A stretch of DNA of 64,000 bases, taken from assembly GCA_029265905.1 (NCBI GenBank), contig JAJUGR010000004.1:95955-159954 (forward strand), in the 5' to 3' direction. The stretch is from Sporomusaceae bacterium (GTDB lineage Bacteria > Bacillota > Negativicutes > Acidaminococcales > JAJUGR01). Both the position numbers and the translations under genes were made by a program. Shown in pieces: positions 24,691-29,627 of the stretch (the stretch's first letter is position 1; each line of letters starts with the position of its first letter). The notes beneath the pieces are model-generated. The model searched no databases and was not told where the DNA came from. It saw only the letters and a list, made by a program, of their open reading frames with translations.

Positions 24691-24738
24691 TAAACAAATA
24701 AGGCGGCCGCCCTTGTGGGCGGCCGCCTTATTTGTTTA
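24691..24738. terminator. Bidirectional terminator between convergent genes
   Basis: taaacaaataaggcggccgcccttgtgggcggccgccttatttgttta. Confidence 0.92.
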
Positions 24739-25812
24739 ATATTCCCAGAACATCTGTTGGATTTCTTTTACGTCATTGGTTTTGGTCAGAGCCAGCATCA
24801 GCAGGATGCGGGCTTTTTGCGGATTGAGGTTATCAGAAGCCACGAAGCCGTATTTGTCGTCGTTAGCTTCGCCGTTTCTGGCAATAATGCCATTGCCGAC
24901 CCGCGCGCTTCTAACCACGACGATGCCTTGGGCAAGCGCCTGCTCGATCGCCGGATATTCGGCTTTTGCGATGCTGCCATTGCCGGTACCGGCATGGACG
25001 ATGCCTTTAGCGCCGGCATTGATCGCCGCTTCAATCATCGTGCCGGCATTGCCGGCATAGTGATAAACGATGTCGACCCGTGGCAGAGCGGTCAAATCCA
25101 TGACATTAAACTCGGTGTGGCGGGTGTGCTTGCGAAGCGGTTCCCGGTAGAACACGGGCTTGTCGCCGGTAAAGAAGCCCAGCGGGCCGATTTCCGGCGC
25201 TTTGAAGGTATCAACCCGGTCAGTGATCGTCTTGGTCACATCACGGCCGGAATGAATGGTGTCATTGAGCATCACCATGACACCCTTGCCTTTCGCTTCT
25301 TTGCTGCCGGCCAAAATGACCGAGCGGTAGAGATTCAGCGGACCATCCGCGCTCATCGCCGTGCCTGGACGCATTGAGCCCACCAGCACGACGGGCTTGT
25401 CGCTTTTGACGACAAGATTAAGGAAATACGCGGTTTCTTCCAAGGTATCGGTGCCATGCGTGATTACTACGCCGTCAACATCATGCTGATCAAGCAGTTG
25501 GTTGACGCGTTTCGCCAGTTTGAGCCAGATTTCCATTGTCATGCTTTCGCTGGCGACCTGGCTGACTTGCTCGCCGCTTACGTTGGCGACCTGGCTCAGC
25601 TCCGGCACGTTGGAGATTAACTTATCCACCGGCGTAACGGCAGCCGTATACCCTACCGTCGTCGTACTGGTCACGCCCGCGCCGGCAATGGTGCCGCCAG
25701 TCGCCAGAATCTTGACGTTAGGCTTGTCAGCCGCCTGCGCCGCCAAAGCGACCTGCATGGCCATTAAAAACACGCACACAAAAGCCAGTATTTTCAGGTA
25801 CCTTTTCCCCAT
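24736..25812 (-). CDS. ansB: Type II L-asparaginase with signal peptide
   Basis: MGKRYLKILAFVCVFLMAMQVALAAQAADKPNVKILATGGTIAG, VVITHGTDTLEETA; RBS AAAGGAG before 25812. Confidence 0.95.
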   Translation of the reverse strand: MGKRYLKILAFVCVFLMAMQVALAAQAADKPNVKILATGGTIAGAGVTSTTTVGYTAAVTPVDKLISNVPELSQVANVSGEQVSQVASESMTMEIWLKLAKRVNQLLDQHDVDGVVITHGTDTLEETAYFLNLVVKSDKPVVLVGSMRPGTAMSADGPLNLYRSVILAGSKEAKGKGVMVMLNDTIHSGRDVTKTITDRVDTFKAPEIGPLGFFTGDKPVFYREPLRKHTRHTEFNVMDLTALPRVDIVYHYAGNAGTMIEAAINAGAKGIVHAGTGNGSIAKAEYPAIEQALAQGIVVVRSARVGNGIIARNGEANDDKYGFVASDNLNPQKARILLMLALTKTNDVKEIQQMFWEY

Positions 25813-26028
25813 AGAAACAGCTCCTTTCATACTAGTGGCATCGCCTTTTTCTCCGGAGTCATCCACCTGCGGCACGGCTGTCCGAGCCGCAACAACCTCC
25901 TTTCCGCCCCTGGCCGGTTGGCCGGCAAATTTATGTCACTATTTATGTTTTTAATATTATCACTTTTCTGATTATTTGCCCATATAAATTTATCCGCCTC
26001 GTTTCACATAGGCAGAAAGCGCTGCAGA

Positions 26029-26751
26029 TTAGCTGCACGCCAAGACCGGCGCGCGTTTTGCGAGCGGCTTGTCAACAAACCGAATGGCCGCCGCCGCCAA
26101 TACCGTCGTCGGGTCAATCACCGGCCGGTCAATCCGGAACATCTCAAACGCCAGCGGCAGCTCCGTACAGCCCAGCACCAACATCTCCGCGCCGCTTGCC
26201 AACAGCCCGTCGATCGTTGCATAAAACGCCCTTAAATCGATCTCCCGGTTCGCCGCCTTCACCCCGTTGTAGATGACGTCCATGACGCTGGCCTGCCCGG
26301 TTGGCGATGGCGTGAGGAGCGCGACGCCTGCTTTGTCCAGCGCCTTGTGATACACCCCCGACTGAAGGGTGCCGTCAGTCGCCAGCAAGCCGACCTTCCG
26401 CAACCCCCGTCTGCTGATCTCCCCCGCTGTTTCCTCCAGCATGTTCAACAGCGGGATATCGAAAAAGGGCGTAAGCCGGTCATAAAAATAGTGCGCCGTA
26501 TTGCAGGGCATCACCAGGGCGTCCGCGCCCATCGACTGCAGGCGGATGCCGCTGCGCACCATTTCCGGCACGGGGTCGGCGCCGCCTGCCAAGATGGCCT
26601 GCGTGCGGTCCGGAATATTGGTATTGCAGTCGATATAAATATGGATGTGCTCCTGATCGGATTTCGCGTCCGTCATTTCTATGATTTTCCTGAACAAATC
26701 ATATGTGGCCAAAGCGCCCATGCCGCCGATAATGCCAATTGATTTTTGCAT
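26029..26751 (-). CDS. Aspartate/glutamate racemase family protein
   Basis: MQKSIGIIGGMGALATYDLFRKI, MPCNTAHYFYD, LVLGCTELPLAF (both catalytic Cys). Confidence 0.93.
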   Translation of the reverse strand: MQKSIGIIGGMGALATYDLFRKIIEMTDAKSDQEHIHIYIDCNTNIPDRTQAILAGGADPVPEMVRSGIRLQSMGADALVMPCNTAHYFYDRLTPFFDIPLLNMLEETAGEISRRGLRKVGLLATDGTLQSGVYHKALDKAGVALLTPSPTGQASVMDVIYNGVKAANREIDLRAFYATIDGLLASGAEMLVLGCTELPLAFEMFRIDRPVIDPTTVLAAAAIRFVDKPLAKRAPVLACS

Positions 26752-26872
26752 CTCGCTCCCCCCCATTTCGCCTGCCCTACCCTTGCCTTCATTATAAAAT
26801 CCGCCTACAATAGAATCAAATATATATATTAATATAAAAGATATAATCTTTTGCTTATACGGAGGGCGAGCG

Positions 26873-27841
26873 ATGTTCAAGGGCAAGGAATACGTGTATG
26901 AGGTTTATAAGGAGAAAAGCTTTTCAAAAGCGGCGCAGAACCTGTACATCAGCCAGCCCGCTTTGAGCGCCGCCATCAAAAAAATCGAAAAGCGGATCGG
27001 CTGCTGCATTTTTGACCGGAGCAGCAGCCCGTTGCAATTGACGGACGGCGGCGCAGAATATGTCAAGGCGGCGGAAAAGATTATGGATATTGAGAACCGC
27101 TTTGAAAACTACCTCAGCAACTTGAACGAACTGAAGACGGGCCGCCTCTCGATTGGCGCAAGCAACGTGTTCGCCTCGTTCATCCTGCCGCCGATCATCA
27201 CGGCCTTCACCAAGAAATATCCGGCCATCAAAGTAAACCTCGTCGAAGCCAGCTCCGCTCACCTCGAAGAACAGCTGTTTTCCGGCCTGCTTGACTTTGT
27301 CATTGATAATTATCCGTTAAGCGAGGCAATCTATGAAAAGCATTTATTCTGCAGCGAGCGTCTTATCCTGGCCGTTCCGCAAAAATTCTCCGCCAACCGC
27401 CTGGCGCAGGACTATCAGTTGTCGCTCGACGATATCCGCGCCGGAAAGCATGCGCAAGAAGCGACAAAGTCCGTGCCGCTGTCCGTCTTCGCCCGCGAGC
27501 CGTTTATTTTCTTACGGGCCGGCAACGACACCCGGATGCGCGCCGATAAGATTTTTCAGGAAAACGGCCTGACGCCCAACATCATTTTAGAACTCGATCA
27601 GTTGGCTACCGCTTACAACGTAGCCTGCTACGGCATGGGGCTGGCCATTATCAGCGACACGCTGGCCCAAAAAGCAAACCTGGACGCCAACATGCTGTAT
27701 TACAAAATAGCCAGCCCCCACACGCTCCGCGACGTCTTTTTTTATAACAAGCAAAACAAATACGTTACCAGAACGATGGAGGAGTTTATTAAAATCGCCC
27801 AGGCGCGAGGCTCGGGCCCGCTTCACCACGCACAGAAATAG
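26873..27841 (+). CDS. LysR family transcriptional regulator
   Basis: KSFSKAAQNLYISQPALSAAIKKIEKRIGCCIFDRSSSPLQLTDGG. Confidence 0.95.
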   Translation: MFKGKEYVYEVYKEKSFSKAAQNLYISQPALSAAIKKIEKRIGCCIFDRSSSPLQLTDGGAEYVKAAEKIMDIENRFENYLSNLNELKTGRLSIGASNVFASFILPPIITAFTKKYPAIKVNLVEASSAHLEEQLFSGLLDFVIDNYPLSEAIYEKHLFCSERLILAVPQKFSANRLAQDYQLSLDDIRAGKHAQEATKSVPLSVFAREPFIFLRAGNDTRMRADKIFQENGLTPNIILELDQLATAYNVACYGMGLAIISDTLAQKANLDANMLYYKIASPHTLRDVFFYNKQNKYVTRTMEEFIKIAQARGSGPLHHAQK

Positions 27842-28061
27842 GCCGTAGAAGAGTACTCTTCTACGGCTTACCCAACCACAATCTTTATGACTTGCGCTAA
27901 GTCACACGCTACATGGCTGTGGAACTATCTGTCACTAGCGCATTAGGCTCCTTTAGGCCTAATAAAGATATGACAGCCAGATAGTTCGCGGCAGCGGAAG
28001 TCATCCGTACGACCCCCTCGGGCTTTGATGTCCGCCGACATCTCCGAACAACTTCTTCTGT
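27842..28061 (-). ncRNA. Structured noncoding RNA candidate, possibly 6S RNA-like
   Basis: No plausible CDS; minus-strand promoter TTGCGT-17nt-TATATT (28096-28068), long imperfect hairpin (GAACTATCTG/CAGATAGTTC, ATGACTT/AAGTCAT, CGCTGC/GTAGCG) and 26-nt perfect palindrome at the far end (27842-27867). Confidence 0.55.
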
Positions 28062-28067
28062 AATTAC

Positions 28068-28096
28068 AATATACCATGATCGTGACCAAAACGCAA
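28068..28096 (-). promoter_or_regulatory. Sigma70-type promoter for the ncRNA candidate
   Basis: Minus: TTGCGT N17 TATATT with TGG extended -10. Confidence 0.6.
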
Positions 28097-28189
28097 GTCT
28101 TTTTTCTGATTTTTTAACGTTTTTGTTCTTGGCATTTATCTTTTTGCTTTGTCTGTGTAATATTCCAGCAAAGGAAACTTTTGTTGATA

Positions 28190-28373: not shown

Positions 28374-29627
28374 TTAAAACAGCAGCCACGCCATGCCGAC
28401 AATCATCGCCCCCACCATCGGCAGGCAGTTGCGCCTGGCGATTTCCATCGGATTGACGCCGGCAATCCCGGCAACGATAATGGTCGCGCCGGCAATCGGG
28501 GACATCGTCCGCCCCAGCGTGCCGCCCAGCGTTGCCATGCTGCCCATTTGCACCGCCGACAAGCCGAATTCTTCCGCATGCGGCGTAATCGCTTGATTGA
28601 AGGCAAAGGTGGCCGCATCGCCCGAACCGACGACCAGTCCCAGAACAAACGGCCCGACCGCCGCACAAAGTTTGACGATCGACGGATTGCTCAGCATCGC
28701 CGTGGTAAAAGCCTTGACCAGCCCCAGCGCCGTCATGCCGGAAACAAACACCCCGGCGGCAATGATGATGCCAAGTATTTCTCCGTACGCTTTCCCCATG
28801 CCGTCGAAAAAAGCATTGCTCAAGGTGGCGGGGTTTTTCCGCGTCACCAGCAGCGCGGCAATGGCGCCGATGACCATGGCTTGAGGAACATCCATTTTGA
28901 AGGCCGGGACAACCTTGGTGGCGCCCAGGATCAAGATCACGATCGGGAAGACCGGCATCAGAGCGTATAAAAAATTCACCTTAAAGGCTTCCTCGACTTT
29001 CAAGCCTTCGATTTCATATCCTTTATGCTCTTTTTTGTAATAGGCGATAAGCGTGATCAACAGGGTCGCGGCAATCAGCGAGGCAATATTGGCCTTATAA
29101 TGAAAGCCGATTACATCCATGACGCCGACGCCGGCGATCTTCGCCACAAACGGGTTGTGCGCAAGGCCCGGATTCAGCATGCTGCCGTATGTACCGCACT
29201 TCACTGCCGCGGCCGCCATAGCCGGGTGCACCCCCGCCGACATCATCAGCGGCACAAAAATCGCCCCGGCAGCAGCAGCCGTGCCCGCCGCACTTGGCAG
29301 GGCGACGTTGATCGCGTAGGTGGCGAACACCACCCCGGGAATCAAAAACGGGCGGACTTGGGAAAGACCGTTTGCCATCAGGTTGATCAAGTGCTTGTCA
29401 CATTCCGTATATTTCATCACCATGGCAAACCCCATTACCGAGCAAACCGCCTGAATCAGGCCGCCATTCGTCATGTCTTTTGCAAATGCATTCAGCGCCG
29501 CCATCGGCGTGCCGGCCACACAGGCCATGCTAAGGCCGGACGCTAGCAGAACAAGTCTGGCGTCATACCGTTTGAGTAAAAAATAAATAGTAATAAGGAC
29601 CATAATCGTGCCAATTGCAAGCATCAT
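28374..29627 (-). CDS. dcuC: C4-dicarboxylate transporter DcuC family
   Basis: MTNGGLIQAVCSVMGFAMVMKYTECDKHL, ALPSAAGTAAAAGAIFVPLMM, GRTMSPIAGATIIVAGIAGVNP. Confidence 0.93.
   Translation of the reverse strand: MMLAIGTIMVLITIYFLLKRYDARLVLLASGLSMACVAGTPMAALNAFAKDMTNGGLIQAVCSVMGFAMVMKYTECDKHLINLMANGLSQVRPFLIPGVVFATYAINVALPSAAGTAAAAGAIFVPLMMSAGVHPAMAAAAVKCGTYGSMLNPGLAHNPFVAKIAGVGVMDVIGFHYKANIASLIAATLLITLIAYYKKEHKGYEIEGLKVEEAFKVNFLYALMPVFPIVILILGATKVVPAFKMDVPQAMVIGAIAALLVTRKNPATLSNAFFDGMGKAYGEILGIIIAAGVFVSGMTALGLVKAFTTAMLSNPSIVKLCAAVGPFVLGLVVGSGDAATFAFNQAITPHAEEFGLSAVQMGSMATLGGTLGRTMSPIAGATIIVAGIAGVNPMEIARRNCLPMVGAMIVGMAWLLF

Follow-up and report, generated by a model that had tools for sequence, protein, structure and literature searches.

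The DNA analysed here is a 64,000-nt stretch (hereafter, the window) from the genome of a Sporomusaceae bacterium. Between the convergent ends of genes for a LysR-type regulator (plus strand, ending at 27841) and a DcuC-family transporter (minus strand, ending at 28374), both identities checked in Pfam, we read from the sequence an RNA gene on the minus strand, at positions 28096-27835. Within positions 24736-27841, asparaginase-like and aspartate/glutamate racemase-like ORFs stand beside the LysR gene and, judging from their translations, probably belong to an amino-acid utilisation cluster.

An earlier note on this DNA had pointed to a minus-strand promoter, TTGCGT-17-TATATT, and to a perfect 26-nt palindrome at the end of the RNA, and both are present (Table 1). 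The -35 box lies at 28096-28091 and the -10 box at 28073-28068; the element is, by its sequence, an extended -10, sigma-A-type promoter, and the pattern TTG...ATGnTATAnT recurs with the same spacing 5' of seven further copies of the RNA (eight loci in all). A generic promoter scanner made no call on it. The palindrome, at 27867-27842, is followed by CTATTTC and forms a terminator hairpin which, with the strands delimited by hand, is fully paired in all homologs despite its different sequence. The computed fold of the minus strand has an energy of -96 kcal/mol (z = -4.6), and the plus strand gives the same z, so that folding energy alone cannot choose between the strands; the minus strand was chosen because of the promoter, the terminator tail and the homologs.

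Table 1. Features of the RNA gene in window coordinates
Feature	Position	Strand	Composition	Basis or remark
Possible UP element	28097..28127	-	A-rich; AAAAACGTTAAAAAATCAGAAAAAAG	5' of the -35 box; second copy nearly identical here
Promoter	28068..28096	-	-35 TTGCGT, 17-nt spacer, TG-extended -10 TATATT	sequence; fixed spacing in eight loci
Predicted transcript	27835..28061	-	about 227 nt	predicted from the -10 box (5' end) and the terminator (3' end)
Domain 1	27997..28055	-	stem P1, hairpin GATGTC/GACATC, small CCC/GGG hairpin (three-way junction)	covariation
Domain 2	27922..27987	-	P2 GAACTATC/GATAGTTC, inner helix GTCAT/GTGAC, internal loop a/b, hairpin H2 TATTAGGC/GCCTAATG	covariation
Loop strand a (domain 2)	27964..27969	-	AUCUUU	complementary to d
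Loop strand b (domain 2)	27936..27941	-	GCGCUA	complementary to c
Domain 3	27876..27921	-	P3 CACA/TGTG, internal loop c/d, hairpin H3 TGACTT-AGCGC-AAGTCA	homolog comparison
Loop strand c (domain 3)	27906..27911	-	UAGCGU	complementary to b
Loop strand d (domain 3)	27881..27886	-	AAAGAU	complementary to a
Intrinsic terminator	27835..27867	-	11-pair hairpin (palindrome) and CTATTTC tail	terminator recognised on the minus strand

A second copy of the RNA, 73% identical, is located on contig C30 of the same genome (G000). A covariance model built from these two copies gave the first matches elsewhere in the class, namely members in other Negativicutes families (genome G101 and the soil MAGs CTSoil_073, or G069, and CTSoil_079, or G177) and a shorter form in G067; the next-round model added a second copy in G177 as well as members in Propionispira arboris DSM 2179 (G308) and P. 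raffinosivorans DSM 20765 (G309). The family thus spans the window genome, with its two copies, and no fewer than six further genomes of the class, among which G177 likewise carries two. P. arboris is placed in the Negativicutes by the NCBI taxonomy, and the window genome, listed under the same class, accordingly belongs there as well. With model R2, scores of 82-145 bits are obtained for full-length members, compared to 32 bits for the G067 form, which is devoid of domain 1 and in which domain 2, the loops and the terminator still align. The core match of model R3 to the window RNA spans 28056-27902 (120.2 bits). Across members, the transcription unit would measure approximately 220-320 nt, with the ends placed by sequence comparison. 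Between the two Propionispira species, a single difference is visible over about 300 nt of transcribed sequence, against an identity of about 95% in the surrounding 12.7 kb and of about 50-75% in the intergenic part upstream.

The distribution of the RNA is patchy within the Negativicutes. DNA similarity searches of the genus, family and order recovered only the genome's own copies. Genome searches with a first-look filter of limited sensitivity found no copy in the 62 order-mates of the window genome, and in the order of G177 such a search found the RNA in G177 alone among 28 genomes; the many-genome searches score few candidates per genome, and these absences are therefore weak. Collections of phages, plasmids and viruses yielded no match, a single viral pattern match having been rejected because the family model does not match it. 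Also discarded were weak model matches at three loci, two of which (L041 and L049) look like coding sequence, whereas one (L060) covers domain 1 only, and pattern matches at L052, L055 and L056, which have no model match.

The covariation across homologous loci that the earlier note had asked for is present: in an alignment of eight members, representing seven distinct sequences, 20 of the 38 modelled pairs carry changes on both sides. Standard pairs occupy 94% of the cells, compared to 29-43% when the partners are slid by 1-3 columns, and none of 500 shuffles, a control that ignores the relatedness of the members, reaches any of five covariation measures. Judging from this alignment, selection acts on the structure of the RNA, and the conserved fold, as read from the homologs, begins with a three-way-junction domain at the 5' end, followed by two irregular hairpin domains and the terminator. 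In domain 1, 96-100% of the cells are paired and 7 of 17 pairs have two-sided changes, a property shared by 13 of the 21 pairs of domain 2. In domain 3, where the strands were delimited by hand, the stems persist across homologs although their sequences differ, and additional stems are found here in G101, G069, G177 and Propionispira but are absent from the copies of the window genome. In the 3' halves of the long-form members L083, L084, L086 and L087, an extra domain 3 subdomain carries a GTTAAG...CTTAAC-type stem, again lacking from the window genome's copies.

Each helix named in the earlier note has its complementary strands in the sequence, but conservation is confined to GAACTATC/GATAGTTC, TTAGGC/GCCTAA and the local hairpin TGACTT-AGCGC-AAGTCA. 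In most homologs, the outer helices of the proposed rod can pair only in part: 4-5 of 7 positions for ATGACTT/AAGTCAT (one homolog reaching 7/7) and 4-5 of 6 for CGCTGC/GTAGCG. ATGACTT is instead part of the covarying 5' stem.

Domains 2 and 3 each contain an internal loop, and the two loops are complementary to each other through both of their strands. In all eight members examined, strands b and c form six of six pairs, with variants including ACGCUA/UAGCGU, ACACUA/UAGUGU and GCGCUG/CAGCGC; on the alignment, this helix is 100% paired and has three pairs with two-sided changes, compared to 2-50% pairing in slid controls, and own partners differ from swapped ones at p ~0.005. Strands a and d, delimited by hand, form 4-6 pairs in seven of the same eight members (AUCUUU/AAAGAU, CCUUU/AAAGG, ACUUU/AAAGU, CCCUA/UGGGG, UCCU/AGGA and AUCU/AGAU), the exception being the second G177 copy, with three pairs out of register; here too, own partners beat swapped ones (p ~0.003). 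With these eight members as the basis, the a-d and b-c contacts are very probably real, whether docked or alternative. Since they cross P2 and P3, the contacts would imply a pseudoknot in which the loops dock or, failing that, a second fold. The 'mutually exclusive helices' of the earlier note thus survive in part and in another form: not the rod helices named there, but P2/P3 versus a-d/b-c, both of which covary and which cannot nest together.

The genes flanking the RNA, compared as neighbouring ORFs, of which those outside the Pfam scan were named from their translations, are unrelated between genomes. In G101 they include a large helicase-like ORF and an FMN reductase, and in G069 a transporter-like ORF and a tRNA-binding-domain protein; G177 has a CsgG protein, Propionispira a TetR-like ORF and G067 a riboflavin transporter. 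Because the neighbours differ from genome to genome, the RNA stands alone and most likely acts in trans rather than as a leader, as judged from the gene order; the constant place 5' of a related gene that a cis-acting leader or riboswitch would hold is not seen, with convergent genes flanking the window copy and variable neighbours elsewhere. A TPP riboswitch (L039:55-166, minus strand of the locus) is found near one of the G177 copies of the RNA. Directly upstream of the second copy in the window genome, and on the same strand, lies a gene for a ProQ/FinO-domain protein (PF04352, 94.8 bits; L004:4895-5323, on G000:C30). ProQ is rare in Negativicutes (above the cut-off in 5 of 381 genomes), and G000 is the only one of the 381 to carry it together with the RNA, which is absent from the four other proQ loci. 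A ProQ partnership was rejected accordingly: the adjacency is real but the co-occurrence is absent.

The window has no match in Rfam 15 at the gathering threshold, and for nine members of the family the best sub-threshold matches are at chance level and different from member to member. The full Rfam scan called for in the earlier note returned no credible family, at gathering or relaxed thresholds, and the note's reading of a structured RNA that has a promoter of its own, possibly an unrecognised one, was borne out. Helix covariation and a dedicated promoter and terminator, seen in several genomes, mark the RNA as a stand-alone structured non-coding RNA, and the family is almost certainly one that is absent from Rfam. 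In the literature on non-coding RNAs of Negativicutes we found cis motifs only, such as those tied to gltD and ldh2 (PMC8632094); a structured-RNA motif has also been described upstream of S-layer-domain genes (PMC6429828). The gltD and ldh2 motifs are likewise structured Negativicutes RNAs, but each is located 5' of one particular gene (PMC8632094), whereas the RNA described here ends in a terminator of its own and lacks a constant neighbour. The raiA motif RNA (205 nt; PMC12286853) offers a likeness in manner of working only: it is a compact, folded Bacillota non-coding RNA of about 200 nt with tertiary contacts, whereas the window RNA, in which the loop contacts are derived from sequence alone, matched no Rfam model. 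OLE, ROOL and GOLLD (PMC12286853) are also ornate bacterial RNAs with kissing contacts, and form RNA-only complexes; they are, however, much larger and give no match.

Resemblance to 6S RNA had been suggested in the earlier note, and in being a heavily folded product of a stand-alone gene, about 200 nt long, the window RNA does resemble it. A divergent second 6S RNA, an open-promoter mimic binding RNA polymerase, would account for this size and gene organization and for the long irregular helices of the single-sequence fold, but we consider it very improbable. RF00013 does not match the window RNA at E<=5, or even at E<=10, in the relaxed Rfam scans; the genome already encodes a canonical 6S RNA elsewhere (G000:C10:28406-28588, RF00013, 106.6 bits); model R3 matches none of the nine 6S loci tested; and the fold is a different one, in which the long rod of a 6S RNA, with closing stem and large central bubble, is not conserved among homologs, the outer rod helices being only partly kept in most of them against 94% pairing in the local domains. 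Even less credible is a chance palindrome-rich sequence or a MITE-like mobile repeat with no RNA gene at all. The two copies in each of two genomes, the patchy distribution and the inverted repeats would be in keeping with such an element, yet the promoter, the compensatory changes and the terminator are kept at 27% divergence, the neighbouring ORFs include no obvious mobile genes, and phage and plasmid collections contain no match.

Two further alternatives accept the RNA gene and differ as to how it would work, and we regard each as rather unlikely. In a switching RNA, P2/P3 and the nested a-d/b-c helices would be two alternative folds selected for rearrangement, which would be consistent with the covariation of both crossing helix sets. 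The nested alternative, computed without P2 and P3, is about equal in stability in Propionispira but clearly weaker, by 7-11 kcal/mol, in four of the five members tested, and docking is favoured because the pairs fill the loops almost exactly, the fit of loop lengths to pairing that docking predicts. A conventional small RNA would base-pair with mRNAs, its structure serving for stabilisation, perhaps with the help of a ProQ/FinO-type chaperone in the window genome. The size, the dedicated promoter and terminator, the location in trans and the proQ gene adjoining the second copy are compatible with this possibility; the co-occurrence with ProQ in G000 only and the mostly paired state of the conserved parts, unlike a seed region, argue against it.

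We favour a stand-alone, trans-acting RNA family with a docked-loop core, working through its fold, and give this reading a probability of roughly 0.7. The loop of domain 2 would dock with that of domain 3, a with d and b with c, producing a compact core in which two short helices connect a pair of four-way junctions. Like 6S, OLE or raiA RNA, the RNA would work through its three-dimensional shape, as a protein scaffold or partner or in an RNA-only assembly. A shape-based role is suggested because the promoter is conserved, the 5' end is largely paired, conservation is concentrated in the helices and the docking loops, and there is no obvious conserved single-stranded seed. Taken separately, the claim that the RNA may work through its fold, and neither as an antisense RNA nor as the leader of an adjacent gene, has in our estimate an even chance of being correct. 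More tentatively still, and with the odds against it, the family may represent a new class of bacterial RNA in which two internal loops dock via both strands into two stacked four-way junctions, possibly swapping partners between molecules to form dimers or larger RNA-only particles, or switching folds.

Earlier RNAs of such kind, 6S, OLE and raiA among them, proved to have notable roles. The Negativicutes family described here adds a sizeable and well-supported structured RNA outside Rfam. With members in the named, deposited strains P. arboris DSM 2179 and P. raffinosivorans DSM 20765, it is directly testable, and in predicting a double contact between the loops the model makes a precise claim about its structure that can be falsified.
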